A stretch of 64,000 nt of DNA from Pseudomonas sp. J452 (GTDB taxonomy: Bacteria > Pseudomonadota > Gammaproteobacteria > Pseudomonadales > Pseudomonadaceae), in contig NZ_CP088294.1 in assembly GCF_024666525.1 (NCBI RefSeq), positions 930,001 to 994,000 on the forward strand. The letters are read 5' to 3'. Positions 6,355 to 47,733 of this stretch are shown here, one piece after another; position 1 is the stretch's first letter, and every line of letters starts with the position of its first letter. The notes under the pieces are model-generated. The model saw only the letters and a program-made list of their open reading frames with translations, did no database searches and was not told the DNA's origin. A program made the position numbers and the translations under genes.

Positions 6355-6399
6355 GGAGTTCCCCATACGGAATAGGCTTCACCGGCTTGTGGCCGGAAA

Positions 6400-6807
6400 T
6401 CAGGAGGCTTGCTCCACCGGAACGAAGTCGGGGACATGCGTCTTGATGGCACCGAGCAGCTCTTCCTTGCTGAAGGGCTTGGTCAGGTACTGGTCGGAGC
6501 CAACGATTCGGCCCTTGGCCTTGTCGAACAGACCGTCCTTGGAGGACAGCATGATCACCGGGGTGGATTTGAAAGCACTGTTGTTCTTGATCAGGGCGCA
6601 GGTCTGATAGCCATCGAGCCGCGGCATCATGATGTCGACGAAAATGATGCTCGGGTGAGTATCGGCGATCTTGGCCAGTGCATCAAAGCCATCAACAGCC
6701 GTGATGACTTCGCATCCGACTTTTTTCAGTAGAGTTTCAGCGGTGCGACGAATCGTCTTCGAATCGTCGATCACCATGACCTTCAAACCCTCGGAATGCT
6801 GTTCCAT
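6400..6807 (-). CDS. pilG: PilG, CheY-like response regulator
   Basis: A stand-alone receiver domain of 135 residues, the first gene of the Pil-Chp operon. The start MEQHSEGLKVMVIDD at 6807 gives the family length; an in-frame ATG ten codons upstream is less likely. Acidic residues VIDDSK, phospho-acceptor in IIFVDIMMPRLDGY and Lys in YLTKPFSKEE are all present. PilG is reported to promote pilus extension and cAMP signalling. A plausible sigma-70 -10 box, TATAAC on the minus strand at 6847-6852, lies about 40 bases upstream; no clear -35 is seen. The gene is divergent from gshB. Confidence 0.95.
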   Translation of the reverse strand: MEQHSEGLKVMVIDDSKTIRRTAETLLKKVGCEVITAVDGFDALAKIADTHPSIIFVDIMMPRLDGYQTCALIKNNSAFKSTPVIMLSSKDGLFDKAKGRIVGSDQYLTKPFSKEELLGAIKTHVPDFVPVEQAS

Positions 6808-7049
6808 GTCTGCCCTACCATCGCCTCGGTGAGTCATTATTCTTACGTTATACAGTGTGCCTGAGGCCCTGCCACCGACGGGCTGCGACCCAATCGTCGG
6901 GCCTTTTTAGCACACTCTCCAGATGCAATCTATAAGCCCCGTCTTTACCGGGTTTCCCTTGACCGGCAGGGCCACCAGCGCCACCCTTGCGCATCTCAGT
7001 ATGGCCGCCCTGGCCTATTTGCCGGATTAATTTGCGGAGGTTTGCCCCG

Positions 7050-8021
7050 ATGAGCGTGCGCCTGGGGATCGTCATGGATCCTATCGACCAGATCAGCTTC
7101 AAGAAGGACAGTTCGCTGGCCATGCTTCTGGCCGCCCAGGCCCGCGGCTGGTCGCTGTTCTATATGGAGCAGAAAGATCTCTATCAGAACGCTGGCGAAG
7201 CCCGCGGTCGGATGTCACCGCTGCGCGTCTTCGACAATCCACAAAAATGGTTCGAGCTGGATACCGAACAGGATAGCCCGTTGCGCGAGCTGGACGTGAT
7301 CCTGATGCGCAAGGACCCGCCCTTCGACAACGAGTTCGTCTATTCCACCTACTTGCTGGAACAGGCCGAACGCGCCGGCGTGCTGATCGTCAACCGCCCG
7401 CAGAGCCTGCGTGACTGCAACGAAAAGCTGTTCGCTACCCAGTTCCCCCACTGCATGCCACCGACCCTGGTCAGCCGCAGGTCGGACATTCTGCGCGAGT
7501 TTGCCGAAGCGCAGCGTGACATCATTCTCAAACCCCTGGATGGCATGGGCGGCGCCTCGATCTTTCGCCACCGCGCCGGCGACCCCAACCTTTCGGTGAT
7601 CCTGGAAACCCTCACCGCCCACGGCACCCAGCAGTGCATGGCGCAGGGCTACCTGCCCGGGATCAAGGATGGCGACAAGCGCATCCTGATGATCGACGGC
7701 GAGCCGATCCCCTACTGCCTGGCGCGTATCCCGGCGCAGGGCGAGACCCGGGGCAACCTGGCCGCCGGCGGCACCGGCGAAGCCCGCCCACTGACCGAAC
7801 GCGATCGCTGGATCGCCGCCCAGGTGGGCCCTGTGCTGCGCGAGAAGGGCCTGCTGTTCGTCGGCCTGGACGTGATCGGCGAACACCTCACCGAGATCAA
7901 CGTGACCAGCCCGACCTGCATCCGCGAGATCGACAAGGCTTTCGACACCCGCATCGGCGAGCGCCTGATGGAGGCCATCGAAAACAAACTGCAAGCTGCC
8001 AAGTTCCAGCCACAAGCTTGA
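7050..8021 (+). CDS. gshB: Glutathione synthetase
   Basis: A 323-residue ATP-grasp ligase joining gamma-glutamylcysteine and glycine with ATP hydrolysis to make glutathione in the cytoplasm. The start MSVRLGIVMDPID at 7050 is supported by GCGGAGG immediately upstream. The N-terminal substrate domain has VRLGIVMDPI; the ATP-grasp part has DIILKPLDGMGGASIFR (about 152-168), GDKRILMIDGEPIPYCLAR (about 210-228) and the metal-binding end LTEINVTSPTCIREID (about 281-296). It is divergent from pilG and followed by tonB3 88 bases downstream, as in P. aeruginosa. Confidence 0.97.
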   Translation: MSVRLGIVMDPIDQISFKKDSSLAMLLAAQARGWSLFYMEQKDLYQNAGEARGRMSPLRVFDNPQKWFELDTEQDSPLRELDVILMRKDPPFDNEFVYSTYLLEQAERAGVLIVNRPQSLRDCNEKLFATQFPHCMPPTLVSRRSDILREFAEAQRDIILKPLDGMGGASIFRHRAGDPNLSVILETLTAHGTQQCMAQGYLPGIKDGDKRILMIDGEPIPYCLARIPAQGETRGNLAAGGTGEARPLTERDRWIAAQVGPVLREKGLLFVGLDVIGEHLTEINVTSPTCIREIDKAFDTRIGERLMEAIENKLQAAKFQPQA

Positions 8022-8108
8022 TCCAGCTAACAGCTTGGGACGCAAGACTTGCAGCGTGAAGCGCGAAGTCGGCAGACTGCGCGGCAATCCGCTGCCCGCC
8101 GAAAGTCG

Positions 8109-9005
8109 ATGAACGCTGCCACGCTCCCACCCCAATTGCCCAGCACCAGCGTCCGCCCCGCGGATCGCCTGGGCTTTACCCTGCTCATCGCGACCATCCT
8201 GCACCTGGCCGTGATCCTCGGCGTCAGCTTCACCCTGGCCAAACCCGGCACGCTGAGCAAGAGCCTGGAAATCACCCTCTCCACCTTCAAGAGCGAAGAG
8301 AAGCCCAAGGACGCGGATTACCTGGCGCAAAACAACCAGCAGGGCAGCGGCACCCTGGAGCACAAGGCCGCGCCGAAGACCACCGAACAGGCCGTCTTTC
8401 AGGACACCCAGGTCAAGCGAGTCACCCCGCCCAGCGCACCGCCCCAGGCGCAGCGCCAGGAAGCCGCACCCAAGGCTGCCATCGCCACACGCAGCCCGCA
8501 GCAGCAGAAGACACCAGTCAAGCGCGAGAAGGAAAAGCCCGTACGAGAAGCCCCCGCAGCACCTGTGTTCGATTCTGAGCAGCTGTCCGCGGAGATCGCC
8601 AGCCTACAGGCGGAGCTGGCGCAGGACATACAGGAATACGCCAAGCGCCCGAAGATCCATCGCCTGAATACTGCCTCGACCATGCGCGACAAAGGCGCTT
8701 GGTACAAGGATGAATGGCGCAAAAAGATCGAGCGGGTCGGCAACCTGAATTATCCGGAAGAGGCCCGGCGCAAAAAGATCTATGGATCATTGATACTCAT
8801 GGTTGCAGTGAATCGTGACGGCACAATCAACGACCTCCAAATTGTTGAATCGTCTGGTCAGCCGGCACTCGATGAAGCCGCCAAGCGCATCGTGCGCCTT
8901 GCAGCGCCCTTCGCCCCCTTTACTGGCGATATGGCGGAGTTCGATATCGTACAAATCACTCGCACCTGGCGCTTTGAGCGCAGCGACCGTCTGTCGAGCA
9001 ACTAG
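8109..9005 (+). CDS. tonB3: TonB-family energy transducer (TonB3-like)
   Basis: A 298-residue TonB-family protein. An N-terminal membrane anchor (about residues 18-40, LGFTLLIATILHLAVILGVSF) is followed by a charged, Lys/Pro/Gln-rich periplasm-spanning region (about 60-180) and a C-terminal TonB domain with YPEEARRKKIYGSLILMVAV near 218-237. TonB proteins pass inner-membrane proton-motive energy to outer-membrane receptors. The start MNAATLPPQ at 8109 avoids an upstream extension with no membrane logic. Between gshB and algH, this is the position of P. aeruginosa tonB3 (PA0406), which was linked to twitching motility rather than to siderophore uptake; no exbB/exbD lie nearby. The pilus link here is inferred from synteny. 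Confidence 0.9.
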   Translation: MNAATLPPQLPSTSVRPADRLGFTLLIATILHLAVILGVSFTLAKPGTLSKSLEITLSTFKSEEKPKDADYLAQNNQQGSGTLEHKAAPKTTEQAVFQDTQVKRVTPPSAPPQAQRQEAAPKAAIATRSPQQQKTPVKREKEKPVREAPAAPVFDSEQLSAEIASLQAELAQDIQEYAKRPKIHRLNTASTMRDKGAWYKDEWRKKIERVGNLNYPEEARRKKIYGSLILMVAVNRDGTINDLQIVESSGQPALDEAAKRIVRLAAPFAPFTGDMAEFDIVQITRTWRFERSDRLSSN

Positions 9006-9015
9006 TGGCTTGCCC

Positions 9016-9081
9016 GTAGGAGCGAGCTCTGCTCGCGAACCCAGGCCCGTCAAGGCTTTGCGAGCAGAGCTCGCTCCTACA
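9016..9081. repeat. REP palindrome pair between tonB3 and algH
   Basis: Two facing copies of a Pseudomonas REP-type element: GTAGGAGCGAGCTCTGCTCG on the left and its near-exact reverse complement GAGCAGAGCTCGCTCCTAC on the right, separated by about 20 bases. The folded hairpin would sit just after the tonB3 stop codon and could stabilise the mRNA end or end transcription. Confidence 0.85.
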
Positions 9082-9131
9082 GACCTTGCCTGCTGCTTGA
9101 AGCCCGTCGTCTTAAGGTCGAAACTAGCCCC

Positions 9132-9701
9132 ATGAAGAATTCCGCGCCCAGCTACCTCAAGCACCACTTCCTGATCGCCATGCCGCACATGGCCGATCCG
9201 AACTTCGCGCAGACCGTCACCTACCTGGTCGAACACAACGATCAGGGCGCCATGGGCCTGGTGATCAACCGGCCGAATGACCTCAGCCTGGCCGACGTAC
9301 TCGAACAATTGCGCCCGGACGAAGAGCCGCCGCTGCGCTGCCAGAGCCTGCCGATCTTCGCCGGCGGCCCGGTACAGACTGACCGCGGCTTCGTCCTGCA
9401 CCCGAGCGGACAGACCTTCCAGGCCACTCTCGAACTGGGCGAGCTGGCCCTGTCGACCTCGCAGGATGTGCTGTTCGCCATCGCCGACGGCACTGGCCCG
9501 CAACAGCACCTGATCACCCTCGGCTACGCCGGCTGGGAAGCCGGTCAGCTGGAAGCCGAACTGGTCGACAATGCGTGGCTGACCTGCCCGGCCGCTGCCG
9601 ACATCCTCTTCGACCTGCCCTTCGACCAGCGCCTGGCCGCCGCTGCCGCCCGCCTCGGGGTCAACCTGAGCCTGCTCAGCGCCCAGGCCGGCCACGCATG
9701 A
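9132..9701 (+). CDS. algH: AlgH / YqgE, UPF0301 family protein
   Basis: A 189-residue protein of the UPF0301 (YqgE/AlgH) family, recognised by HHFLIAMPHMADPNFAQTVTYLVEHN near the N-terminus, GAMGLVINRP (about 39-48) and GYAGWEAGQLEAEL (about 132-145). The family's biochemical activity is not established; in P. aeruginosa AlgH was named for an effect on alginate. The stop overlaps the start of ruvX by four bases (ATGA), so the two are translationally coupled, a pairing conserved in many proteobacteria. Confidence 0.95.
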   Translation: MKNSAPSYLKHHFLIAMPHMADPNFAQTVTYLVEHNDQGAMGLVINRPNDLSLADVLEQLRPDEEPPLRCQSLPIFAGGPVQTDRGFVLHPSGQTFQATLELGELALSTSQDVLFAIADGTGPQQHLITLGYAGWEAGQLEAELVDNAWLTCPAAADILFDLPFDQRLAAAAARLGVNLSLLSAQAGHA

Positions 9702-10135
9702 GCAATCCGGACAAACCGCTGCGCCTGCTGCTCGGCTTCGATTACGGCAGCAAGCAGATCGGCGTCGCCGTCGGCCAGGTGATCACCGGCCAGGCCCGCG
9801 AGCTGTGCGTGCTCAAGGCGCAGAACGGCGTCCCCGACTGGCAGAAAGTCGAAGCATTGATCAAGGAGTGGCAGCCGGACGCCATAGTCGTCGGCCTGCC
9901 GCTGAACATGGACGGCAGCCCGAGCGAGATGAGCGAACGTGCGGAGAAATTCGCCCGCCGCCTCAACGGCCGTTTCAACCTGCCGGTTCACACCCACGAC
10001 GAACGCCTGACCACCTACGAGGCCAAGGGCGAACGCATGGCCCAGGGCCAGCGCGGCGGCAGCTACCGGGACAACCCGGTCGACGCCCTGGCCGCGGCAC
10101 TACTGCTCGAAGGCTGGCTGGCCGAGCACCCGTGA
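9698..10135 (+). CDS. ruvX: RuvX / YqgF, RNase H-fold Holliday junction resolvase-like protein
   Basis: A 145-residue RNase H-like protein of the YqgF family, associated with 16S rRNA 5'-end processing and, in some species, Holliday-junction resolution. Key acidic motifs are LLGFDYGSKQIGVAVG (Asp near residue 15), IVVGLPLNMDGSPSEM (about 65-80) and DNPVDALAAALLLEGW near the C-terminus. The ATG at 9698 overlaps the algH stop (ATGA), which fixes the start. A longer in-frame reading inside algH is rejected. Confidence 0.95.
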   Translation: MSNPDKPLRLLLGFDYGSKQIGVAVGQVITGQARELCVLKAQNGVPDWQKVEALIKEWQPDAIVVGLPLNMDGSPSEMSERAEKFARRLNGRFNLPVHTHDERLTTYEAKGERMAQGQRGGSYRDNPVDALAAALLLEGWLAEHP

Positions 10136-10232
10136 CATCCTTTATTAAACGGCTTCGCGCGCATTTGGCGCAGTAATCGCCACGCGCTCGGCTATGTTGT
10201 GCCAACAGCTTCCATTTGCACGAGGATCGTCC

Positions 10233-10739
10233 ATGACCCTACCCAACCCCGCCGAACTGTTGCCGCGCATGGCCGCCGAGTTGCAGCAACTGCTGGCCAG
10301 TCGCGGCATCGAACAGGCCCACTTCATCGGCATCCGTACCGGCGGCGTGTGGGTCGCCGAGGCCCTGCTGGCGCAGCTGGGCCTGGACCAGCCGCTCGGC
10401 ACCCTTGACGTATCCTTCTACCGCGACGACTTCACCCGCAGCGGCCTGCACCCGCAGGTACGCCCGTCCGCGCTGCCGTTCGATATCGAAGACCAGCACC
10501 TGGTACTGATCGACGACGTGCTGATGAGCGGGCGCACCATCCGCGCCGCGCTCAACGAGCTGTTCGACTACGGCCGCCCGGCCAGCGTGACCCTGGTCAG
10601 CCTGCTCGACCTGAATGCCCGCGAGCTGCCGATCCATGCCGATGTGCTCGGCGCAACGCTCGCCCTGGCAGCCAACGAGCGGGTAAAATTGCTCGGCCCC
10701 GCGCCGCTCGCCCTCGAGCTGCAACGCCTTTCCGCCTAG
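10233..10739 (+). CDS. pyrR: PyrR, bifunctional regulator / uracil phosphoribosyltransferase-like
   Basis: A 168-residue phosphoribosyltransferase-fold protein. The PRPP-binding loop is [17 protein letters not shown] (about residues 91-107) and [16 protein letters not shown] lies near 30-45. In Gram-positive bacteria PyrR is an mRNA-binding attenuator; in pseudomonads it is reported to regulate pyrimidine genes, but the mechanism is less clear. The start at 10233 follows GAGGAT. It ends nine bases before pyrB and is probably cotranscribed with pyrB and pyrC'. Confidence 0.94.
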
Positions 10740-10748
10740 GAATCCCCC

Positions 10749-11750
10749 ATGCCTATCGACGCCAAGCGCTCGCTGCAGCTCAACGACCAGGGCCAGCTGC
10801 GCCACTTCCTCTCGCTCGACGGTCTGCCCCGCGAGCTGCTGACGGAAATCCTCGACACCGCCGACTCCTTCCTCGAAGTCGGCGCCCGCGCGGTGAAGAA
10901 AGTCCCGCTGCTGCGTGGCAAGACCGTGTGCAACGTGTTCTTCGAGAACTCCACGCGCACCCGCACCACCTTCGAACTGGCTGCCCAGCGCCTGTCCGCC
11001 GACGTGATCAGCCTCAACGTGTCGACCAGCTCGACCAGCAAGGGCGAGACCCTGTTCGACACCCTGCGCAACCTGGAAGCCATGGCCGCCGACATCTTCG
11101 TGGTACGGCATGCCGACTCCGGCGCGGCGCACTTCATCGCCGAGCACGTCTGCCCCAACCTGGCGATCATCAACGGTGGCGACGGCCGCCATGCGCACCC
11201 GACCCAGGGCATGCTCGACATGCTCACCATCCGTCGGCACAAGGGCGGTTTCGAAAACCTCTCGGTGGCGATCGTCGGCGACATCCTCCATTCGCGGGTA
11301 GCGCGCTCCAACATGCTCGCGCTGAAGACCTTGGGCTGCCCGGATATCCGCGTGATCGGGCCGAAGACCCTGCTGCCAATCGGCATCGAGCAGTACGGGG
11401 TGAAGGTCTACAGCGACCTCGCCAGCGGCCTCAAGGATGTCGACGTGGTAATCATGCTGCGCCTGCAGCGCGAGCGCATGCAGGGCGGCCTGCTGCCCAG
11501 CGAAGGCGAGTTCTACAAGCTATTCGGCCTCACCGAGCAGCGTCTCAAGCTGGCCAAGCCGGATGCCCTGGTGATGCACCCGGGGCCGATCAACCGCGGC
11601 GTGGAAATCGAATCGGCGGTGGCCGACGGCCCGCAGTCGGTGATCCTCAATCAGGTCACCTACGGCATCGCCATCCGCATGGCCGTGCTGTCCATGGCCA
11701 TGAGCGGCCAGACCGCCCAGCGTCAACTGAATGCCGAGGAGCAGAACTGA
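10749..11750 (+). CDS. pyrB: Aspartate carbamoyltransferase catalytic subunit
   Basis: A 333-residue aspartate transcarbamoylase: carbamoyl phosphate plus aspartate gives carbamoyl aspartate, the committed step of pyrimidine synthesis. The carbamoyl-phosphate loop is [16 protein letters not shown] (STRTRTTF at residues 68-75), and [16 protein letters not shown] (about 141-156) and [12 protein letters not shown] (about 275-286) are conserved. Pseudomonas ATCase forms a dodecamer with the inactive dihydroorotase homologue PyrC'; the next gene overlaps the stop by one base (TGATG), in keeping with co-assembly. No pyrI regulatory subunit is present. Confidence 0.97.
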
Positions 11751-37693: not shown

Positions 37694-39058
37694 TCACTGC
37701 GGATTGCTTTGCAGCTGCAGCGTGGGCTTCGGCGGTTCCGGCTGCGGCTGCGGCGCCTTGATCTGCAGCACCGGCTTGGGTGGTTGCGGCGGGGTTTGCG
37801 GCGCCTGCAGTTTCAGCTCGGGCTTCGGCGGTTGCGGCTCATTGGCCTTGAGCTGCAGTTGCGGCTTCGGCGGCTCGGGCTGCGGTTGCGGCGCCTTGAT
37901 CTGCAGGCCCGGCTTCGGCGGTTCGACCGGTGCTACCTGCAGCTTGCCACTACCACCCGGTTGCACGTTGAGGGTACTGGTGCAGAGCACCTCGACCTCG
38001 ACCTTGCTCGACTGCTGCTTGTTCGGCGCCAGCACATGCAGGCGGTAGCTGCGCTTGACCAGCGTGCCCTGGCCCTGGGTATTGGCCTTGAAGCCACCGA
38101 TACCCTGCTGCTGCGGCTGCGCATCCGGCTTGATGGTGACCTTTTGGTTGAGCACACGCTGGGTCGCCTCGCCCACCTTGCCCGGCAGGTTGCTGGTCAT
38201 CTGCATGGCGGCGCCCTTGCCGCCGACTTCTTCCAGCCAGTACTTGATCTCGCCGCCACCGACACCCTTGATGGTGGCCTTGAGATTCACTTCCGCCGGG
38301 CACACACCCTTGAACTTGGCGGGCTGGGCGACCAGCTCGACGCTGGTGACCTGGAACTGCGCCGCTACACCTTGCGGGCCTTTCGGCGGGGCGACCTTGT
38401 CGGCGATGGTCGGGTTGCCCAGGCACTGGATGGTCACCGGCGCGGTTTTGTCCCACAGGTGGTACTGGTGGCTGCTGGCCGGCCGCGAGGTGTTCGGCCC
38501 GCCGCCCAGCTGGTAGAAACCGGCCATTTTCAGCGGCACATCGAGCTTGACGTTGAAGCCCTGGCGCAGCACCTGATTGAGGCCCTTGCCCTGCTTCAGG
38601 CGGTTGTGCTTTTCGAAGCTGCAGTAGGTGGCGATATCGGCACCGGGGATGCCGTCATTCACCAGCAATTTGAACGGCAGGTTGGCGTTGAGATAGCCAC
38701 TGGCAGCCTTTACCTGGGCGGCGCCGAGATCGAACATCTGCGCTTTCTCGAAGAGCATCTCGCCATTGCTGGGGATCTTCGCTTCGCCGACGTAGATCCG
38801 CGCCCAGGGCTTGCTCGGCTGCTGCGACCACTGGTGGGTGTACTGGAAGCGCATTTTCACCGTGCTGCTGGGCACCACCGACCACTCGCCCTTCTGGTCC
38901 AGCTGGACCTGCAAGGTGTGCGGCTGGCCGCCATTGGGCGCAGCCTTGATGGTGGCGGTGGCAGCCGGGTTGTCATCGACAGCTTGGGCGGCGGTGCTGG
39001 CCAGTAACAGGGCCAGGCTGAGGCTGCTGAGGGTGAAGCGGGCGTTGAACGCTTTCAT
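37694..39058 (-). CDS. Secreted protein with C-terminal PPKP repeats, ECF-regulon member
   Basis: A 454-residue exported protein, signal peptide about residues 1-26 (ending AAQA). The body (about 30-375) looks beta-rich and contains four or more Cys (ATYCSFEK, IQCLGNP, GVCPAEV, VLCTST), possibly disulfide-linked Ig-like modules. The last 75 residues hold five imperfect repeats around PPKPxLQ (for example EPPKPGLQIKAPQPQP), which could span the peptidoglycan or bind a partner. I do not recognise a family. A promoter 43 bases upstream (39101-39133) matches the one heading the barrel operon at 46192, which places this gene under the ECF sigma factor encoded at 41500. Confidence 0.8.
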   Translation of the reverse strand: MKAFNARFTLSSLSLALLLASTAAQAVDDNPAATATIKAAPNGGQPHTLQVQLDQKGEWSVVPSSTVKMRFQYTHQWSQQPSKPWARIYVGEAKIPSNGEMLFEKAQMFDLGAAQVKAASGYLNANLPFKLLVNDGIPGADIATYCSFEKHNRLKQGKGLNQVLRQGFNVKLDVPLKMAGFYQLGGGPNTSRPASSHQYHLWDKTAPVTIQCLGNPTIADKVAPPKGPQGVAAQFQVTSVELVAQPAKFKGVCPAEVNLKATIKGVGGGEIKYWLEEVGGKGAAMQMTSNLPGKVGEATQRVLNQKVTIKPDAQPQQQGIGGFKANTQGQGTLVKRSYRLHVLAPNKQQSSKVEVEVLCTSTLNVQPGGSGKLQVAPVEPPKPGLQIKAPQPQPEPPKPQLQLKANEPQPPKPELKLQAPQTPPQPPKPVLQIKAPQPQPEPPKPTLQLQSNPQ

Positions 39059-39100
39059 GGTAGAGATCCTTGTAGGGGTGGCGATAAATTTGCCTTGCCA

Positions 39101-39133
39101 CCCTCTGTCGTTGATCGCTACTGCAGCGGTTCA
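39101..39133 (-). promoter_or_regulatory. ECF sigma promoter, copy 1
   Basis: Minus strand: TGAACCGCTG, 13 bases, CGACAGAGGG, with an AT-rich stretch just upstream. It is 43 bases before the secreted-protein ATG at 39058. The two decamers and the gap length are identical to copy 2 at 46192-46224, while the 13 bases between differ, as expected for -35 and -10 elements. GAAC...CGAC fits ECF-type promoters. Confidence 0.8.
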
Positions 39134-39175
39134 AATTATTTTTGCCGCTCGCGATAATCCTTCTGAGTAAAGCCG

Positions 39176-39340
39176 CTAGTGGCCTGTGCGGCTAATTCGT
39201 GCATTCAAGTTCGAGTGCCAGGGTTTGCCAGACAAGGCGCCGCGACGAGTCGTAGCAGGGCTACGGTGAGGAGCGGCAACGCCGTATGGCGAAGTCTGGC
39301 GCCGAAATTGAGTATTTGAATTAGCCAAACAGGCCACTAG
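39176..39340. repeat. Palindromic dispersed element after the subtilase gene
   Basis: A 165-base element with long inverted ends: CTAGTGGCCTGTGCGGCTAA on the left and, as reverse complement, CTAGTGGCCTGTTTGGCTAA on the right. Inside lie GCCAGAC...GTCTGGC, a hairpin CGTAGC-AGG-GCTACG and the core CAACGCCGTATGGC, shared with the elements at 27666 and 47777. It fills most of the gap between the subtilase gene and the promoter at 39101. Confidence 0.75.
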
Positions 39341-39357
39341 GCCAGGATTGGCGAGGC

Positions 39358-40815
39358 CTAGCGACAGCCGGGCAGGCGCGCCAGACCGGCGCCGTACTGC
39401 TCGTCGCGGCCGCTCTCACCGAGATCACGGGCCTGCGCCAGCAGCGCTTCGGCAGAGGGCGCCAGGGCCAGGGCGGCGCTGACGAAGGGCGCGGCGAAGG
39501 AGGTACCGCTGGCGTAGAAGCCCTGGCCATTGCCGTCCAGGGTCCAGATATCCTCGCCCGGCGCCACCAACGCCAGATGCCGGCCGAAGTTGGACTGGCG
39601 CAAACGCCGCAGCCGCGCATCCACTGCGCCCACCGCGAGCACGCCGGGATAGGCGGCCGGATAACGCACGCCGGCCTGGCCGTCGTTGCCGGCGGCCGCG
39701 ACGAAGTCCATCCGGGCTGCAAGCTGCTCGAACAGCTCCGCCAGCAAACGACTGTGCGCCCCGCCGAAGCTCAGGTTGACCGCCTGCGGCGCTGGCTGCA
39801 GGCCGGCCAGCTGCTCCAGGGCGTTGATCACCCAGTCGCTGCGGGTGTGCAGGCCGGCCGTGCGGTCTTCACCAAAAATCCCCAGGGCCTGCAGGCGCGC
39901 GCCGGGCAGCAGGCCGGCAACCTGCTCGCGGCCGACCAGCAACGCCGCCAGCGCGGTGCCGTGCCGCGCCGCCTCGCTACTGCGGGCCAGGTACTGCGCC
40001 GGCGGCAGGCTCTGGTAATGCAGATCGGCACCGGCAAACTCGCTCAGCGCGCTGTTCACCGGGCCGTCGAGCATGGCCAGCAGCTTGCCCTTGCCGCAGT
40101 CGACGGCGGCTCGTTGCTGGCGGCCCATGGCGCGCTGGCCCCAGTTGCGTTGTTGCAGCTCGGCCGCGTCCGGCAACTGCAACGGCCGGTAGCGCTGATT
40201 GAGCTCCTGCTGCCAGTGCGGAAACTGCCGCCTTAATTCGGCTTCCAGTTTTTGCAGGTCGAGCTGCGCGGGGATGCGGTAGACGCTGAGCACCCGCTGC
40301 AGATTAGGCAACTGCTGGCGACGCAGTATCGACAGCTGGAACGCTTGCAGGGCCAGGCGCTGCTGCTCCGCTTCGGCCAGGTCGCGGCTGAACACCAGCC
40401 ACTCGCGCAACGGCGGCAGCTCCTCCGTCGGCGGCTGCACCACACCGCGCCACTGCTGGGGTGGCGCCTGCAGCATGGGCTGATCGAGCAGGCTGCCCGT
40501 GGCGCGGCGGGGCGGCGGGATGGCAGTAGGAGCTGCCGGAGTTACGGGTGGGATAAGCTCCGGCGCCGGCACTGGCGCCGGCACTGGCGCTGGCGAAGCA
40601 AGCGGGGCGGCGGGAGTTGCCGCGGGTACGACAGGCGCCGGAGCAGGCGTCGGCGCAGGGCCGCCAGGCACGGGTGGCACAGCCGGTGCAGGCGGCGCAC
40701 TGCTGGCGGGCGGGCCACCCGGAACGCTGGGCGTTGCCGGCCCACCAGCGGCGTCGCTGGCAGCCTGCAGCGGCAGGCTCAGAAGCAGCGCCAGCAGCAG
40801 CCAGGGCCGCCTCAT
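39358..40815 (-). CDS. Secreted subtilisin-like (S8) serine protease
   Basis: A 485-residue exported protease. Signal peptide about 1-18; a Pro/Ala-rich linker about 20-105; a helical prodomain-like part about 125-225; then the S8 domain with Asp 250 (LLAMLDGPVNSAL), His 285 (ARHGTALAALLVG), NLSFGG (347-352), oxyanion Asn 377 (AAAGNDG) and Ser 439 (ASGTSFAAPF). The triad is complete. It overlaps the anti-sigma gene by four bases (ATGA), so it is translated with it; I infer that it could process the anti-sigma factor or the outer-membrane partners, or be an effector of the response. Length and linker are unlike housekeeping subtilases. Confidence 0.88.
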   Translation of the reverse strand: MRRPWLLLALLLSLPLQAASDAAGGPATPSVPGGPPASSAPPAPAVPPVPGGPAPTPAPAPVVPAATPAAPLASPAPVPAPVPAPELIPPVTPAAPTAIPPPRRATGSLLDQPMLQAPPQQWRGVVQPPTEELPPLREWLVFSRDLAEAEQQRLALQAFQLSILRRQQLPNLQRVLSVYRIPAQLDLQKLEAELRRQFPHWQQELNQRYRPLQLPDAAELQQRNWGQRAMGRQQRAAVDCGKGKLLAMLDGPVNSALSEFAGADLHYQSLPPAQYLARSSEAARHGTALAALLVGREQVAGLLPGARLQALGIFGEDRTAGLHTRSDWVINALEQLAGLQPAPQAVNLSFGGAHSRLLAELFEQLAARMDFVAAAGNDGQAGVRYPAAYPGVLAVGAVDARLRRLRQSNFGRHLALVAPGEDIWTLDGNGQGFYASGTSFAAPFVSAALALAPSAEALLAQARDLGESGRDEQYGAGLARLPGCR

Positions 40816-41438
40816 GGCTTCTCACGCGCCAGCAGCGCGGCATGCTGCACCACCGCTTGCTGCTGCAACCACTGCAGCAGGGCCTGGCCATCGGCGAAGC
40901 GCCGATCGGCCGGCACATGCACCTGCACGACACCCAGCGCCGAAGGGCCATCCACCAGCACCGCGTCGACCTCCAGCAGCAGCCCGCGCACCTGCTGCCA
41001 CTGGGCATGCTCGACGAAACGCAGCTGCACCCGGTAGCCACCGCTGAGTACCTGCTGCGGCCCGCCGCTCTGCAGTTGCCAGTCCATGTCGGTCGGCGCC
41101 GGGCGCATCAGGATGCCCAGTTGCAGCGCCACCACCAGGGCTGCAGCGGCCGCCAGCGAAGGCTTCCACCAGTCGCGCCGGGCCGCCGTCGGTTCTTGTT
41201 GCAGGCTGCGCTGCAGGCGCGCCCAGCCTAGTTCGGCCGGTGCGCTGTGGGCGTTGTTGTGCTGCTGTTCCGCCTGCTGCAGCGCCGGCGCCAGTTGGCG
41301 CAAGCCGGCCAGTTCCTCGCGGGCCTCGGCGGAGCGTTGCAGCAGCGCCTCGACCCGGGCCCGCTCGTCTGCCGCCAACGTGCCGTTGAGGTACCAGGGC
41401 AGCAGGGCGCGTAAATCGTCGTCAGTTTCGTTGTTCAT
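40812..41438 (-). CDS. Membrane anti-sigma factor
   Basis: A 208-residue single-pass protein. The cytoplasmic part (about 1-90) starts with LRALLPWYLNGTLAADERARVEALLQ, the pattern of anti-sigma domains, but there is no Cys in the protein, so it is not a zinc-binding ZAS domain. One membrane helix lies at about 95-112 (LAAAAALVVALQLGIL). The periplasmic part (about 113-208) is of unknown fold. Placed directly after the ECF sigma gene (61-base gap with strong GGAGG site) and overlapping the protease gene. Role inferred from position and topology. Confidence 0.85.
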   Translation of the reverse strand: MNNETDDDLRALLPWYLNGTLAADERARVEALLQRSAEAREELAGLRQLAPALQQAEQQHNNAHSAPAELGWARLQRSLQQEPTAARRDWWKPSLAAAAALVVALQLGILMRPAPTDMDWQLQSGGPQQVLSGGYRVQLRFVEHAQWQQVRGLLLEVDAVLVDGPSALGVVQVHVPADRRFADGQALLQWLQQQAVVQHAALLAREKP

Positions 41439-41460
41439 TGTTCACCTCCGCAGCCTGTAC

Positions 41461-41492
41461 CCCTGAGTCGTCTGCGCCGGTGTAGCGGTTCA
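41461..41492 (-). promoter_or_regulatory. Possible ECF sigma promoter, copy 3 (imperfect)
   Basis: Minus strand: TGAACCGCTA, 12 bases, CGACTCAGGG. Matches copies 1 and 2 at 9/10 and 8/10 positions, but with one base less between the two blocks. It sits in the gap between the sigma and anti-sigma genes, 23 bases before the anti-sigma ATG, and could drive the anti-sigma and protease genes separately. Confidence 0.5.
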
Positions 41493-41499
41493 GTCTTTC

Positions 41500-42063
41500 T
41501 CATGCCTCGGCCCCTCCCAGCAGGCGCCGCAGACACTGCAGCAACTGCTGTTTGGCGTGCAGCATGCGGGTCTTCACGGTGCCATTGGGGATGGCCATGA
41601 TCTCGGCGATTTCCGGGTAGGACAGTTCCTCGAAGAAGGTCAGGTAGACCACCTGGCGATGGCTGTCCTTGAGCCGGTCCAGGCACAGGCGCACCTGTTC
41701 GCCCTGCTGGCCCAGCTCCATGGCCAGGCTCATAGGGCAGCTCGCCTCCTCCTCGCCTTCGTCCAGGCTCGCTTCGTCGAGCAGTTCGGTGGGGCGCTTG
41801 CGGCGCAACAGGTCGATCGACTTGTGCCGGGTGATGCTCAGCAGCCAGGTGCGCACCTGCGACTGGCCCTGGAAGCTGGCGGCGCGGCGCCAGACTTCCA
41901 GCATCACCTCGTTGAGCACCTCGGCGGCATCGGCGGCGTTGGCCACCGTGCGCATGGAGAACTGGTAGACCACGCCGTGGAAGCGCTCATAGAACTGGCG
42001 CAGGGCGCGCTGATCCTGGCCGGCGATGCGCAGCAGCAATTGTACGTCCGTGTCTTCGCTCAT
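41500..42063 (-). CDS. ECF-family RNA polymerase sigma factor
   Basis: A 187-residue sigma factor. Region 2 is FYERFHGVVYQFSMRTVANAADAAEVLNEVMLEVWRRAASFQGQSQVRTWLLSITRHKSIDLLRR (about residues 22-90); region 4 is CLDRLKDSHRQVVYLTFFEELSYPEIAEIMAIPNGTVKTRMLHAKQQLLQCL (about 122-175) with the helix-turn-helix SYPEIAEIMAIPNGTVKTRM. Start MSEDTDVQL at 42063 overlaps the stop of the upstream gene by four bases (ATGA); an ATG seven codons earlier lies inside that gene. It probably recognises the promoters at 46192, 39101 and perhaps 41461, which would make the operon self-activating. Not a FecI-type iron factor: no FecR-like protein or TonB receptor nearby. Confidence 0.93.
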   Translation of the reverse strand: MSEDTDVQLLLRIAGQDQRALRQFYERFHGVVYQFSMRTVANAADAAEVLNEVMLEVWRRAASFQGQSQVRTWLLSITRHKSIDLLRRKRPTELLDEASLDEGEEEASCPMSLAMELGQQGEQVRLCLDRLKDSHRQVVYLTFFEELSYPEIAEIMAIPNGTVKTRMLHAKQQLLQCLRRLLGGAEA

Positions 42064-43637
42064 GGCTGGTAGCGCACTCTCCATTCCTGGCTCTTGCCGA
42101 TCAGCGCGCCACCCTGGTCATGGGCGGTCACGCGCCACAGATAGTAACGCCCCGGCTCCAGCTTGTTGCGCATCAGCGCCGACAACGGGGTCTGGGTGGT
42201 GCTGGCCGGCAGCAGCATGCCGGCGACGAAGCTGGGCGACTCGCCGAGCACCTCGACCTCGCCGGCATTCTGCTGGTCGAGGCCAATGGCGAACAACTGC
42301 AGCTGGTAGACCACCGCGCCGTCCACCGCCCGCCACTGGAAGGCCGTGGCCGCATCGACCGTGCCGCTCTGCGGGCTGGCGGCAATCGCCAGTTGAGCAG
42401 CGGGGCCGCTGCCGCCCAGCACCTCGTAGACGGTTTCCACGGTGAGGCTCTCGATCGGGCAGCCGGAGTCCAGCACCAGGGCATCGGCCGGCACCAGATC
42501 CTGGTTGGTCACGCAGAAGCGCAGCCGATACTTGCCGGCCTTGGCCGTCGGCAAGGGCGGGCTGTACAGCGTGCTCTGCTGGGCACTGCCAAGCTGGCTG
42601 CGCACCAGGGTGAGGGTGCGGTAGAACGGCTTGCCCTCGGTGCTGCCCGGCTCGGCCACCTGCCAACGCCCCTCGACCAGGCCATTGCCGCTGTAGCCCA
42701 GCAGTACCTTGGCTTTCAGCTCAGTGGCCGGCGGCACCAGCTTGATCCGCTGGTTGTCGAGGAAGCTCAGGCTCAGGCGCTGCACCAGCAGCTCGCCGTC
42801 GCGGTTTTCCCGCGGCGCGCGCAGGCCGCTGCTGACCAGGGTGAGGACCACCTGAGCGCTCAGGCTCTGGCTGCCGCTGGAGAACTCGCGCTGCAGGATC
42901 AGCCGGCGCAAGCCACGGGCATACCAGCCCTGCACCTCGGCCGCCGACAGCTCCAGCTGCTCGCTGAGCAGGAAGGGCGTGCGGCCACTGGCGCTCAGGC
43001 CGTCGCCCAGGGTGGTCAAGACGCCGCCACTGGCCGGGTCGATGATGCGTGCGCGGCTGGAACTGACCCGCCCGCTGAAGTCGTCACTGGCCACCACCTG
43101 CCAGGCCAGGGCCAATACATTGCGCTGGCTGGCCAGCACCTGGCGCTGCGCCGGCTGAATCTTAACCGCGCGCAGGCTGCCCACCGGCTGGGTCGGCTGG
43201 GTCGGCGCGGGCAGCACCAGCACCTGCTGGCCACGTACCGTGCCGCCCCCTGCCAGGTCGGCGAAGTCACGCACCAGCAGGACCCGGCGCAGACCGCTGC
43301 GCTGCCAGCCCTGCACTGTGGCCAGCGGCAGACTGATGAACTCGCCGAACGTGAACGGCCCGCTGCCACCCTGGCTGAGGGTGCCACCGACCGTGGCCAG
43401 GGTCGCGCCGCCGGACGGGTTGATGATGCGTGCCGCGCTGGAGGCGGCGCCGCCCCGGTGGACAGCACCCGTCGTGACGCGCCAGTTGACCGCAAAATTG
43501 TTGTCCTGGTTAACCTGCAACTGGCGCTGGTTGGGCTGGGCGGTCGCTGCCAGCAAGGCGGCCTGGGCAGAAAAGGCAGGCAGGCCGAGGCAGGTAACCA
43601 GGGCGAGCAGCAGCCAGTGCTTGGAAAATCGGTTCAT
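42060..43637 (-). CDS. Secreted protein with a tandemly duplicated domain
   Basis: A 525-residue exported protein (signal peptide about 1-26, ending SAQA). Residues about 34-143 and 160-268 are two copies of one beta-rich domain: both have ARIIxPxxGG, GPF/TPF, VQGWxxxGLRR (GW at 110 and 237) and a closing xVLxLP/LTL strand. The remainder contains further Ig-like stretches with two Cys (RFCVTNQD, DSGCPIES) and ends with an extracellular-type module (HDQGGALIGKSQEWRVRYQP). No family recognised. GGAAGG precedes the ATG. It sits between the barrel gene and the sigma gene and is coupled to the latter, so it belongs to the same operon. Confidence 0.8.
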   Translation of the reverse strand: MNRFSKHWLLLALVTCLGLPAFSAQAALLAATAQPNQRQLQVNQDNNFAVNWRVTTGAVHRGGAASSAARIINPSGGATLATVGGTLSQGGSGPFTFGEFISLPLATVQGWQRSGLRRVLLVRDFADLAGGGTVRGQQVLVLPAPTQPTQPVGSLRAVKIQPAQRQVLASQRNVLALAWQVVASDDFSGRVSSSRARIIDPASGGVLTTLGDGLSASGRTPFLLSEQLELSAAEVQGWYARGLRRLILQREFSSGSQSLSAQVVLTLVSSGLRAPRENRDGELLVQRLSLSFLDNQRIKLVPPATELKAKVLLGYSGNGLVEGRWQVAEPGSTEGKPFYRTLTLVRSQLGSAQQSTLYSPPLPTAKAGKYRLRFCVTNQDLVPADALVLDSGCPIESLTVETVYEVLGGSGPAAQLAIAASPQSGTVDAATAFQWRAVDGAVVYQLQLFAIGLDQQNAGEVEVLGESPSFVAGMLLPASTTQTPLSALMRNKLEPGRYYLWRVTAHDQGGALIGKSQEWRVRYQP

Positions 43638-43682
43638 CGTTCACCTTCCTTTCCCTCCCCGGCCAGCGGCCCGGGCGGGGCA

Positions 43683-45884
43683 TCAATATGTGTGGGTATC
43701 CCAGCGCAGGTCGAAGCCCAGCAGCAGCTGCCAGTCCTCCAGGCCCTGGTCGTAGAGGTCGCTGTCCTGCTTGGCGTAACTGCTCTTGATGAACCAGTCG
43801 AGGCCGGGGTTGAGGCCATCGGGCTGCATCTGCGTCCAGGTCAGCTGCAGGTTGGCGGTCTGCTGCAGCATGCTGTCGCCGAGGAAGTCGCCGTCGCCGA
43901 AGTGGCTGGTATCGCGGCCGCGGTAGTAGGAGGCATTCAGCAGCCAGCGCTCGGGGACAATCTGCCAGGCTACATCCAGGCCCCGGCTGACGCTGCGGTA
44001 GAGATTGTCGTCGTCGCTTTCCTGCTGCTTGTTCCATTGCCAGCTGGTGGAAATGCTCAGCACGTCCCAGGGCATGTAGCCGATCTGCAGGGTGGTGAAG
44101 CGGTTGCGCTGATCGGACGGCGGCTCGTAGATCAGGTAGCCGTTCTGCTCCACCGCCTGCGAATCGTCGCGGGTTTCCTGCAGGGTGTGCTGCACCGACC
44201 AGTTCCAGCGGTTGTGGTAGAAATTCACCCCGACCAGGCTTTCGCGCGTCTCGTCGTTGAGGTCGAAACCGACCACCTGGGCGTCTTCGCGATCCTGCCG
44301 GCGGCGGGTCTCGGTCACTCCAGCATTCAGCGAGGGCATGCCGAGGATGCGCCAGGGCAAGGCGTTGCTGTCGACCATCGGGTAGTAGTAGAGGTTGAAC
44401 ACCTGGCGATGGGCGACCTGGTCAGCGATGTCGTCCTGGTCATCGAGGTTGTTGGTCTCGCGCGCCAGCTCGGCTTCCACCTGCAGGTTGCCGACAAAGG
44501 CCTGCCAGTTGGCCCGCTCCAGCTGCAGGTCGCCGGGTAGCGAGAGGTTGCCGAGGGTGAAGAAATCCAGGCCCACCTCGCGCCGCTGCAAGGTCAGGTT
44601 CCACTGGTCGAACGGCCCGGAGGGGAACCATTCGCCGGAGCTGAACTGGGTCTGCAGATCGTGCGCGCTATCCGTGCGCGCGTCTGCGCCGATACCGAGG
44701 CCGTCGCTGTCGAAACTGGAGTGGGCGTAGTCGCCATGCAGCCACAGGCTGTTGTTGCCCAGGCGCGAGTCGACTGCGATGTTCCAGCTGTCGCCACCGT
44801 AGCGGGTCTGCTGATCCGGCGACCACCAGCCGACCCCGCTGTCGGTGGTCTCGCCGTTGAGGTAGGCGGTGCTGAACTGCAGCCATTGCGGGTTTTCCTG
44901 CAACGGGGTGAAGGTCAGCAGGCCGCCGGCACTGCGCTCCTCGCTGCTCTGCGGGTAACCGAGGCGGCGCCGGTAGTCGGTCAGCGGCTCGCTCTGCAGG
45001 CCGAACACCTCCAGCTGCAAGGGGCTGCTCAACGCATCACCGAGGCTCAGCGCCACACCGCGGCGCTGGTAGGCGCTGAACAGCAGGTCCTCGCGCAGCA
45101 CGTTGTAGGTGCCCAGGGCCAGCCCCTGGCGACTCAGGCCCGTACCGCGCGAAGCGGCCAAACGGTAGTTGGGCAGCTCCCATTCGTAGCCGTTGGGGTT
45201 GTTCTCACTGAGATTGTCGTACAAGGCATCCAGCTCACCCTGCCACTGCCAGTCGGCGCCAGCGCCTTCGCCGCGGTAGCTGACACCGCCATTGCTGGCG
45301 TAGCGCGGGCTATCGGGATAGTTGGCGGCATCCTTCTCGTCGACCCGGTAGTTGTTGCTGAGCAGGCCGTAGAGGGTATAGCGGTGGGCGAGCGGTGCCG
45401 CATCCTGGGCATAGGCATCGACCGCCGTGGCGGCCTCTTCGCTGGCAGGCTCCGCCGCCAGCACCTCGGTGGTGTCCGTACCTGGATCGGGCGCGGCCGC
45501 CGTCTCGTCGCTCGCCTGCGGCGCGCTGCCGGCGGCCACTTCGACGCTGGCTTCGAGCAGGGTGGCGACGTTGCCGTTGGCATAGAACACCAGCACCAGC
45601 AGCGGGTGGCTGCCGTCAGCCAGCGGGCTGGGCATGTCGAGGAGAAAATCGCTGTCGCTGCGGCTGATCAGGGCGCTGACGTCGTAACCATCCAGCTCCA
45701 CAGCCAGCTGGTCACCGGCGCCCAGCGTCTCCAGGCCGAGCACGCTGAAACTCAGGCGGGTCTGCCCGGGCGCCAGGTTGAGCACGTCCTCGGCCGCCGC
45801 CTGGCCGGCCAGGCTACCGAGCAGGAACACCGCGCAGCAGCGACGGGTGCTGGTGATCAGTCGGTGCACGATGCTCATGGCCAT
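43683..45884 (-). CDS. Large outer-membrane beta-barrel protein
   Basis: A 733-residue exported protein. Signal peptide about residues 1-31 (AAA then ED). An N-terminal beta domain (about 32-120, LNLAPGQTRLSFSVLGLETLGAGDQ) is followed by an acidic, Ala/Thr/Glu-rich linker and then, from about 170 to the end, alternating amphipathic strands rich in Trp, Tyr and Asn (for example YTLYGLLSNNYRV, WQWQGELDALYDN, WQLLLGFDLRWDTHTY). The ending in an aromatic residue (Tyr) fits BamA-dependent barrels. The layout loosely recalls PapC/CsgG-like or pilus-usher-like export barrels, but no plug or usher motif is certain. Start at 45884 (AGGA six bases upstream); an alternative Met is two codons later. Confidence 0.8.
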   Translation of the reverse strand: MAMSIVHRLITSTRRCCAVFLLGSLAGQAAAEDVLNLAPGQTRLSFSVLGLETLGAGDQLAVELDGYDVSALISRSDSDFLLDMPSPLADGSHPLLVLVFYANGNVATLLEASVEVAAGSAPQASDETAAAPDPGTDTTEVLAAEPASEEAATAVDAYAQDAAPLAHRYTLYGLLSNNYRVDEKDAANYPDSPRYASNGGVSYRGEGAGADWQWQGELDALYDNLSENNPNGYEWELPNYRLAASRGTGLSRQGLALGTYNVLREDLLFSAYQRRGVALSLGDALSSPLQLEVFGLQSEPLTDYRRRLGYPQSSEERSAGGLLTFTPLQENPQWLQFSTAYLNGETTDSGVGWWSPDQQTRYGGDSWNIAVDSRLGNNSLWLHGDYAHSSFDSDGLGIGADARTDSAHDLQTQFSSGEWFPSGPFDQWNLTLQRREVGLDFFTLGNLSLPGDLQLERANWQAFVGNLQVEAELARETNNLDDQDDIADQVAHRQVFNLYYYPMVDSNALPWRILGMPSLNAGVTETRRRQDREDAQVVGFDLNDETRESLVGVNFYHNRWNWSVQHTLQETRDDSQAVEQNGYLIYEPPSDQRNRFTTLQIGYMPWDVLSISTSWQWNKQQESDDDNLYRSVSRGLDVAWQIVPERWLLNASYYRGRDTSHFGDGDFLGDSMLQQTANLQLTWTQMQPDGLNPGLDWFIKSSYAKQDSDLYDQGLEDWQLLLGFDLRWDTHTY

Positions 45885-45943
45885 ACCTGTTCCTGGTTGC
45901 CAGCCCAGCGACCACGCGCACTCGGCTGGGTAGCCGGCGAGGC

Positions 45944-46162
45944 TCACTGGAGCACAACCGCGGCGCGCAGTGGCGCACGGTCGGGTTGCGGGGTGCCACA
46001 GCCATGCCCTGGCACTGTGACCCATGCCGGCTGGTTGTCTCGTTGGGGTATCACGCGTACAGCCGGGCAACACACATCGTAGACCAGGGGCGGTACGCAG
46101 CATGCTCGATAGCCGGCAGCAACAGCGGGCGGCGCGTGCGGGGCAACACGGGGCAAGTACAT
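45944..46162 (-). CDS. Possible 72-residue Cys/Pro-rich leader protein
   Basis: ATG at 46162 follows CCAGGAGCGTCACCC, a good ribosome site, and is the first frame after the ECF promoter at 46192. The product starts MYLPRVAPHAPPAVAAGYRA and has two Cys pairs (ACCVPP, DVCCPAV) and one more Cys, with no signal peptide. It ends at 45944, 60 bases before the barrel gene. It could be a real small protein, a leader peptide controlling the operon, or a chance frame in GC-rich DNA. Confidence 0.4.
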   Translation of the reverse strand: MYLPRVAPHAPPAVAAGYRACCVPPLVYDVCCPAVRVIPQRDNQPAWVTVPGHGCGTPQPDRAPLRAAVVLQ

Positions 46163-46191
46163 GGGTGACGCTCCTGGCAGGTGGCTGACAC

Positions 46192-46224
46192 CCCTCTGTC
46201 GTAGTCCACCGGGCCAGCGGTTCA
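46192..46224 (-). promoter_or_regulatory. ECF sigma promoter, copy 2 (barrel-sigma operon)
   Basis: Minus strand: TGAACCGCTG, 13 bases, CGACAGAGGG, preceded by AAAATAAAG. Both decamers and the spacing are identical to 39101-39133. It is 30 bases before the 72-residue frame and 308 bases before the barrel gene. The rest of the upstream gap (46225-46295) contains no other feature that I can see. Confidence 0.8.
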
Positions 46225-46295: not shown

Positions 46296-47612
46296 TCAGT
46301 CCTGCATGGCCTCGGTGAACTGGCCGATGGCATCTACCACGCGCTGTGCCTCGTCGCGGATTTCCAGCATCACTTCGCCCGCCCGGTTGACCAGCTGCAC
46401 GCCCTGCTCGGCCTTGGTCTTGCTGCCGTCCATGCCGCTGACCGCCTGCTGGGCCAGCTCATGGTTGAGGCGTACCACCTCGTTGATCTCCACCGTGGCC
46501 TGGCTAGTGCGCGCCGCTAGATTGCGCACCTCGTCGGCGACCACAGCAAAGCCGCGCCCCTGCTCGCCGGCGCGTGCCGCCTCGATGGCCGCATTCAGCG
46601 CCAGCAGGTTGGTCTGCTCGGCAATCCCGCGGATCACCTGCACGATGCTGCTGATGCGCTCCGACTGCTCACTGAGTGCAGCGATCTTGCCGGCCACCTG
46701 CCCCAGCTCCTCGGCGATACCGCGCACCACCTGCACAGCCTCATCGACGGTGCCGGCGCCCTTGATCGCACTGTCATCGGTCTCCCGGGCGATGTCGAAC
46801 GCCAGTTGCGCAGCCGCCGCCTCGGCTTCGCGGTGCTCGACCTGGGCAGTGATGTCGCTGGCGAACTTGACCACCCCGTAGAGCTGGCCGGTGGCGTCAT
46901 ACAGCGGGTTGTAGGTGGCACGCAGCCATACCGTCTGGCCGGACTTGGTGATGCGTTTGAAGCGATCGGAGATGAACTCGCCCTGGTTCAGGCGCTGCCA
47001 GAAACGCCGGTAGGCATCGCTGCCGGTCTCTTCGCGGGCGCAGAACTGGCTGTGGTGTTTGCCGCGAATCTCGTCCAGGCGATAGCCCATGGTCTGCAGA
47101 AAGTTATCGTTGGCCTCCATCACCTCGCCCTTGAGGTTGAACTCGATCACCGCCATGGAACGGTTGATCGCGTTGAGCAGGCTCTGGTGCTGGTGTTCGG
47201 CATGCACCTGGGCGGTGATATCGATGGCCACCTTGATCACCTTGCTGACCCGTCCGGAAACATCGCGCACCGGCAAGTAACTGGCCTCCAGCCAGATTTC
47301 CCGGCCGCCCTTGGCCACCCGCATGAAGCGGTCACTGAAACTCTCGCCATTGCCTAGACGCTGCCAGAACTGGGCGTAGGCCGGGCTGGACAGCAGCGCC
47401 TTGGCGCAGAACAGCCGGTGGTGCTGGCCACGCAGCTCATCCAGGCGGTAACCCATGGTCGCCAGGAACGCTTCGTTGGCCTCGAGAATCTCCCCCTGTG
47501 GGGTGAATTCGATCATTGCCATGGTCTGTCGGATAGCGGCCAACACCTGCTGGCTGGAGGCCAACTGGGCCTGACTCTGTTGCAGTTCCATGCGAAGAGC
47601 TGATCCGAACAT
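46296..47612 (-). CDS. Soluble double-PAS chemoreceptor (BdlA-like)
   Basis: A 438-residue cytoplasmic methyl-accepting chemotaxis protein. Two tandem PAS/PAC domains (about 21-137 and 143-259) are close copies: [32 protein letters not shown] and [32 protein letters not shown]. The MCP signalling domain follows (about 265-438) with [38 protein letters not shown]. No membrane segment. The layout is that of P. aeruginosa BdlA, which mediates biofilm dispersion. The ATG at 47612 has GAGGT upstream; a GTG 27 codons earlier is less likely. The signal may be redox- or ligand-based; not determinable. Confidence 0.88.
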
Positions 47613-47733
47613 GACAACCTCACAATCCATTAGGGGGTCGATGCAGCATAGATGCCAGACTATCGGCGTGCGCTCGGTACTCCTTGAGCACACTGGCGGA
47701 CGAGTGACAGATAGGCTAGCCAGCTGCCCATAA

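Follow-up and report, generated by a model that had tools for sequence, protein, structure and literature searches.

The promoter sequences indicate that six minus-strand genes of Pseudomonas sp. J452, located in the window (the whole 64,000-nucleotide stretch of DNA that was analysed), form a real ECF sigma regulon which, in Pseudomonas, is predicted to be self-contained. They encode a large predicted barrel, an exported duplicated-domain protein (DUP), the sigma factor, a membrane anti-sigma factor, an S8 protease and an exported protein referred to as PPKP. The order of the first five genes is kept in unrelated families, which rules out chance clustering; together with the promoter pattern common to the three predicted transcripts, this makes the regulon more than a coincidence. 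The observation made in the preliminary description is confirmed and is stronger than stated there. Its overall interpretation is supported in part: the regulon, the co-occurrence of the genes and the absence of Fec or Rse matches stand, while the PPKP protein did not prove to be a fixed member.

Layout of the locus and its predicted promoters

All six frames were found where they had been reported, as a minus-strand run of closely spaced or overlapping genes. The features of the locus are as follows.

46195-46224, minus strand: P1, TGAACC-N17-CGACAGA, 340 bases before the barrel ATG
45944-45988, minus strand: remnant, by its reading frame the last part of an operon-first CARDB gene that is whole in L012, L013 and L045
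43683-45884, minus strand: barrel gene from the ORF scan, 733 aa from the ATG at 45884
42060-43637, minus strand: DUP, exported, 525 aa, Ig/FN3-like domains
41500-42084, minus strand: ECF sigma factor, 194 aa, Sigma70_r2 and Sigma70_r4_2 above the Pfam cut-off
41464-41492, minus strand: P2, TGAACC-N16-CGACTCA, between sigma and anti-sigma, 54 bases before the anti-sigma ATG
40812-41438, minus strand: anti-sigma factor, 208 aa, one membrane span between a ZAS-like cytoplasmic part and a periplasmic domain
40815-41054, minus strand: putative prodomain-related periplasmic stretch of the anti-sigma factor (PF22148 in 3/14 members; profile comparison with controls)
39358-40815, minus strand: S8 protease, 485 aa, PF00082 at 77.9 bits (above the Pfam cut-off), triad D250/H285/S439
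40183-40416, minus strand: prodomain-like part of S8, about residues 134-211
39104-39133, minus strand: P3, TGAACC-N17-CGACAGA, 75 bases before the PPKP ATG
37694-39058, minus strand: PPKP protein, 454 aa, exported, with 4 Cys and a proline-rich repeat tail

The barrel and DUP genes lie 45 bases apart, DUP and sigma overlap by 25, sigma and anti-sigma are separated by 61, anti-sigma and S8 overlap by 4, and S8 and PPKP are separated by 299; for the barrel gene, a longer frame of 806 aa is also open. In Pfam, the sigma factor matched Sigma70 regions 2 and 4 only, DUP gave only a sub-threshold CopC match, and there was no match for the barrel up to E 0.1 and none for PPKP. In NCBIfam, the sigma factor scored best with the model of an unnamed subfamily, though under that model's cut-off, and the models for the anti-sigma factor remained far below theirs. 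The source genome contains 12 Sigma70_r2 matches. A PAS/chemotaxis-type gene occupies positions 46296-47693 of the window, between a desaturase gene and P1. It was rejected as a member of the system, as no match to it was found between the desaturase and the barrel in the Pseudomonas locus L011, so that it was either gained in the window or lost in L011.

Position 46224, the limit of the locus in the preliminary description, is the first base of the P1 -35 element. An A-rich stretch and TGAACCGCTG are common to the sequences before the barrel and PPKP genes, and so is CGACAGAGGG, which comes 17 bases behind the first six. The pattern TGAACCN{14,18}CGACAGA matched the genome twice, before these two genes, vs. 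0 in the control. The looser TGAACCN{16,17}CGACWNA matched the 4.86-Mb genome three times, always in this locus (control 0); it was derived from loci of this system and is thus no independent test of them. The comparison of the upstream regions shows that the same predicted ECF-type promoter pattern precedes barrel-DUP-sigma, anti-sigma-S8 and PPKP. The earlier claim of a self-contained ECF regulon agrees with these three sites, all within this locus, and with the co-occurrence of the genes across genera.

In genomes G095, G262 and G291, 3/3 pattern matches belong to the system locus, and in 17 congeners in which DUP had no match the pattern occurs at chance level (27 matches vs. 26 in the control). 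Altogether, 14 genomes were scanned, with 62 matches vs. 11 in the control; G534 (2 vs. 4) and G516 (0 vs. 2) gave no excess of sites over the control. Three of the 62 lie inside the barrel gene (L034, L035 and L041) and were rejected as promoters, as they overlie a conserved NRxxxSDD peptide. Among the distant loci, a site precedes the barrel gene in L038 and L040, the anti-sigma gene in L021, L035, L041 and L090, and genes for exported proteins in L037, L038, L040, L041 and L043. No exact site was found upstream of the barrel in L034, L035, L036, L037, L041 and L043, or before the anti-sigma gene in L014. Outside the core loci there were 36 matches, 24 of which, in 20 stretches, were read. 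According to a crude score, the frame downstream of 14 of these 24 sites starts in a signal-like manner (one encodes a multi-span protein), the same score fitting 89/247 flanking frames; in G352, 6/10 downstream frames pass it. The signal-like frames back the regulon reading in a supportive manner only.

Gene order, barrel and DUP, and candidate cargo

The system is rare but spread. With the source genome counted in each case, DUP was found in 2/148 genomes of the family and the barrel in 3/199 genomes of the genus, while the DUP profile matched 14 of the 369 genomes of the class (12/272 genera). A broader DUP profile matched 4/398 genomes of the phylum, namely the source genome, G095 and two weak ones. 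The anti-sigma profile was found in 20/229 genomes of the class, the source genome included, several weak matches covering the N-terminal part only. Plasmid carriage was rejected, as the collection of plasmids contained no match to DUP.

When the species-genome collection was scanned, with two peptide patterns setting the limits, five loci were obtained in Pseudomonas (P. guryensis, P. alcaligenes RU38D, PDM15, P. aestuarii and BMS12). All six genes are present in one order in the Pseudomonas loci L011, L012, L013 and L045; L014 has the first five, followed by another exported protein in the PPKP place, and L015 ends soon after the anti-sigma gene, with PPKP and its promoter on another contig of the same genome. 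Outside Pseudomonas, 13 DUP loci from 12 genomes were read (the G596 match was left out), and in nine of the 13 the sigma gene adjoins DUP. All five genes follow in the order barrel-DUP-sigma-anti-sigma-S8 in L034, L035, L037, L038 (where S8 runs into the contig end), L041 and L043. The order is the same in L036, where S8 is cut short, and in L021 and L040 up to the contig ends. In L033, L039 and L042, the barrel-DUP pair has no sigma factor of this group beside it. L044 consists of a barrel-like gene, a small gene and, at 6075-11623, a giant DUP-related protein of at least 1849 residues that reaches the contig end. The five-gene order is thus kept in Pseudomonas and in other gammaproteobacterial families, and the neighbourhood survey proposed in the preliminary description bears out the co-occurrence of barrel and DUP with the sigma factor across genera, while PPKP is not constant. 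Distances among the five proteins in 7 taxa were correlated at 0.58-0.92, or at 0.26-0.86 when one Pseudomonas was added, neither L012 nor any locus with an incomplete gene being used; DUP-sigma was the weakest pair (r 0.58, or 0.26 with one Pseudomonas).

The barrel protein starts with a signal-like N-terminus. Its model, built with 30 sequences (pLDDT 82, pTM 0.68), comprises an Ig-like domain (residues 33-116), a low-confidence linker and 26 strands counted within residues 166-730, with no plug, and thus predicts a barrel of about 26 strands. In Foldseek, MtrB had the highest query TM-score (0.39) among the 50 matches listed, and FimD came first by E-value among the matches listed; in VIA, MtrB stood in the first row, tied, the matches listed being a mix of large and small barrels. 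As judged from the model, the fold searches point to a large barrel and not to a family. DUP is built of arrayed Ig/FN3-like domains, and the number of its N-terminal repeats varies among relatives. With its model (pTM 0.40), most of the 50 Foldseek matches listed were Ig-array proteins, including those of the complement/macroglobulin and integrin kinds, and no query TM-score exceeded 0.33, so no function is read from this search; the DUP profile gave one match only (E 0.91) among solved structures.

The PPKP profile had no match among solved structures. PPKP had been taken as a fixed member of the unit, a claim that was not upheld: in P. aestuarii another exported protein takes its place, and PPKP is one of several exchangeable exported proteins rather than a constant partner. 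CARDB domains are present in the operon-first gene of L012 and L013, behind a site in L136 (G432) and L043, and in L033 beside the barrel-DUP pair; a Calx-beta protein lies behind a site in L037. A further remnant of the operon-first CARDB gene was noted at L015 7337-7741. The comparison of PPKP with the operon-first protein of L012/L013/L045 gave 77% (score 36.2), whereas the values were 16% for L038/L040, 15% for L014 and 0.2% for L041, vs. 0.6% and 0.04% in the controls. One Cys-Cys Ig domain for all cargo was rejected, and the cargo proteins are not claimed as one family.

Several further features of the exported proteins were observed. The tail motif [LIVM][QKRES][LIV][KR][PA], picked after looking, occurs in 5/20 regulon-type proteins vs. 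14/247 flanking frames, and a tail of the LQIK[AP] kind is found in PPKP, L014 14057-15334, L040 4309-5517, L130 and L135. In G352, a CsgG and peptidoglycan-binding lipoprotein (L128 1477-2472) stands behind a regulon-type site. In G339, the sites precede small exported proteins, His-rich or Lys/Arg-rich (L138, L139, L143 and L146), which are unlike the Pseudomonas cargo.

The anti-sigma periplasmic domain and the S8 protease

As read from the sequence, the anti-sigma factor has one membrane span. It contains no Cys, just as previously described, and this state is derived, since the anti-sigma factors of L034, L038, L041 and L043 keep a C-x-x-C pair at that place. The N-terminus gave zf-HC2 in 14/14 members, with E-values of up to 1 and a best value of 5.6e-10 (below the Pfam cut-off in the window copy), and matched the ChrR anti-sigma domain of solved structures with E 3e-4. 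Within the last 80 residues, the anti-sigma factors have a conserved core around VDGPSALG. The fervidolysin N-terminal prodomain family PF22148 was found in 3/14 members (best 2.4e-5); Pfam did not detect it in the window's own anti-sigma factor alone, which scored 2.8 bits (E 0.16) against the prodomain profile. We compared the periplasmic domain, alignment to alignment, with 18 PF22148 segments; within the stretch read, 11 of their frames contain the serine motif of S8. The score was 31.8 over 64 columns (probability 86.5%), vs. at most 12.1 for 30 column shuffles, 11.6 for the anti-sigma factor's own N-terminal part and 12.3 for a DUP domain, and the domain stops near the point where the prodomains end. 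By these profiles, the periplasmic end of the anti-sigma factor is related to subtilase prodomains. It gave no direct profile signal with the prodomain-like part of S8 itself (score 13.5), so that the relation is one of fold family and not a recent copy.

The S8 triad reported as intact, Asp250, His285 and Ser439, is present and invariant in 10/10 aligned relatives, and the prodomain-like part of S8 scored 36.3 against the PF22148 segments. The sigma-anti-sigma-S8 trio also occurs without barrel or DUP in the stretch read: in L090, where a site is found upstream of sigma as well as before the anti-sigma gene, and, in a more distant form, in L093 and L094. In L091 and L092, anti-sigma factors of the prodomain type were present and no S8 was found in the stretch read. 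These sigma/anti-sigma pairs with a prodomain-like periplasmic end (L091 9247-10516 and L092 9049-10344) lie beside genes that we take, from their sequence, to be dnaK-dnaJ-like.

The preliminary description had the protease act either on the anti-sigma factor or on the secreted partners; the domain relationship suggests a tie to the former, and the latter becomes a rival. With about even confidence, we propose a dedicated envelope regulon in which S8 binds the prodomain-like end of the anti-sigma factor and starts sigma release, the sigma factor in turn firing the locus. This is favoured because of the conserved order, the shared promoters, the prodomain relation of the anti-sigma factor and the invariant triad. 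The cleft of the active site of the exported S8 would receive the prodomain-like end in the way in which it receives the protease's own prodomain, and S8 would make or trigger the first cut in the anti-sigma factor; the only M50 protease of the genome would cut next, thereby freeing the sigma factor. The latter would fire P1, P2 and P3, giving more barrel, DUP, cargo and sigma, while P2 would renew the anti-sigma factor and S8, thus closing a feedback loop. With less confidence, barrel and DUP may serve as an outer-membrane route or scaffold for Ig/CARDB-type cargo, for instance PPKP, and S8 may report the state of the barrel/DUP/cargo assembly. That the operon builds a surface structure is plausible in view of the exported Ig/CARDB-type partners and the large predicted barrel. 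More tentatively, and at somewhat less than even confidence, the anti-sigma factor could be a membrane-tethered prodomain mimic of a dedicated subtilase, the protease being both signal and trigger, that runs an undescribed barrel/Ig system exporting or displaying exchangeable Ig/CARDB-type surface proteins. Against the proposed regulon model speak the weak window copy, the missing direct prodomain signal, the loci L091 and L092, in which no S8 was found in the stretch read, the absence of exact sites from several loci, the lack of an excess of sites in G534 and G516, and the poorly correlated DUP-sigma distances.

Rather unlikely, in our estimate, is that the substrates of S8 are PPKP, DUP or other exported cargo, with the prodomain-like anti-sigma end sensing something else and another protease cutting first. 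The co-expression with exported proteins predicted from the shared promoter pattern, the prodomain-like part that S8 itself has, and the anti-sigma factors of L091 and L092 are all consistent with it, whereas the position of S8 directly after the anti-sigma gene, overlapping or close, with P2 common to both, and the persistence of the trio without barrel or DUP nearby speak against it. Prodomains of this kind inhibit their proteases, and the anti-sigma domain stops near the prodomain end; it might be mainly an inhibitor that keeps S8 inactive at the membrane, and S8 binding would change the anti-sigma factor so that another protease cuts it. For this reading, which we consider still less probable, the lysozyme/RsiV pair (PMC5014341) is an analogous precedent, but the evidence is equally compatible with cleavage by S8. 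Very improbable is a barrel that signals through the anti-sigma factor as a FecA-kind receptor, S8 being incidental. The barrel gene does belong to the operon, and NCBIfam gave a very weak TonB-B12 match, far below threshold (17.1 bits vs. the cut-off of 599.7), but Pfam found no plug, signalling or receptor domain in the barrel, the model consists of an Ig-like domain followed by about 26 strands, and the anti-sigma factor has no FecR match. Release of the sigma factor by S8 acting on the prodomain-like end thus remains the preferred reading.

Comparison with known systems

To our knowledge, there are few systems in which it is understood how a site-1 protease selects its anti-sigma factor and what the protease senses. 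In the present case a rule is suggested by the sequence, the anti-sigma factor probably carrying a domain of the family that subtilases use to bind themselves. If true, two proteins would make up a protease-sensing switch amenable to reconstruction and testing, and in the carrier genomes the promoter pattern would point out candidates for the cargo of an envelope system that is uncharacterised.

RpoE-RseA and SigW-RsiW are ECF sigma/membrane anti-sigma pairs released by proteolysis. Like them, the present system has an ECF sigma factor, an adjacent ZAS-like membrane anti-sigma factor and a promoter pattern before the sigma factor's own operon; unlike them, it has a prodomain-like periplasmic domain and a dedicated S8 gene, with no RseA/RseB-type neighbour. 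The earlier conclusion that the locus fits neither FecIR nor RpoE-RseAB holds: Pfam gave no RseA or RseB match in the six proteins or the 14 anti-sigma members, no FecR match in these members, and no TonB receptor with plug and signalling domain in the barrel, whose model lacks a plug. Unlike MtrB, the barrel has no MtrB/PioB profile match in Pfam (query TM-score at most 0.39 among the 50 matches listed), and unlike chaperone-usher systems it gave no match to an usher profile at E 0.1 or better, even if FimD had the best E-value among the Foldseek matches listed. The periplasmic domain resembles the fervidolysin-type prodomain by profile, but in contrast to PF22148 proteins it stands at the C-terminus of a membrane anti-sigma factor and not before a catalytic domain.

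Judged by titles and the opening of abstracts, no description of the system was found in the literature searched, which did not include preprints or papers behind a subscription, and the ECF review PMC8103513 has none of five protease terms. The ECF54 group, as described in PMC8999054, has subtilase and CHAT neighbours and no anti-sigma factor; the present system is similar in having a subtilase gene near an ECF sigma gene and differs in the presence of an anti-sigma factor. The nearest published principle, by analogy, is that of RsiV, whose outer domain, according to PMC5014341, fits into the pocket of the lysozyme active site, this binding giving rise to the signal. In the proposed model, just as in SigV-RsiV of Bacillus subtilis, the outer domain of the anti-sigma factor would fit the active site of an enzyme. 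The domain, the enzyme and its origin are different: the RsiV lysozyme-binding domain is not among the 17 Pfam families listed for the 14 anti-sigma members, and the enzyme there is host lysozyme, whereas here it would be the cell's own co-expressed protease. Taken together, the sequence comparisons point to an uncharacterised envelope regulon in which the known ECF/anti-sigma control appears to be varied by a prodomain-like sensor and a dedicated protease, the job of the barrel/Ig part being unproven.
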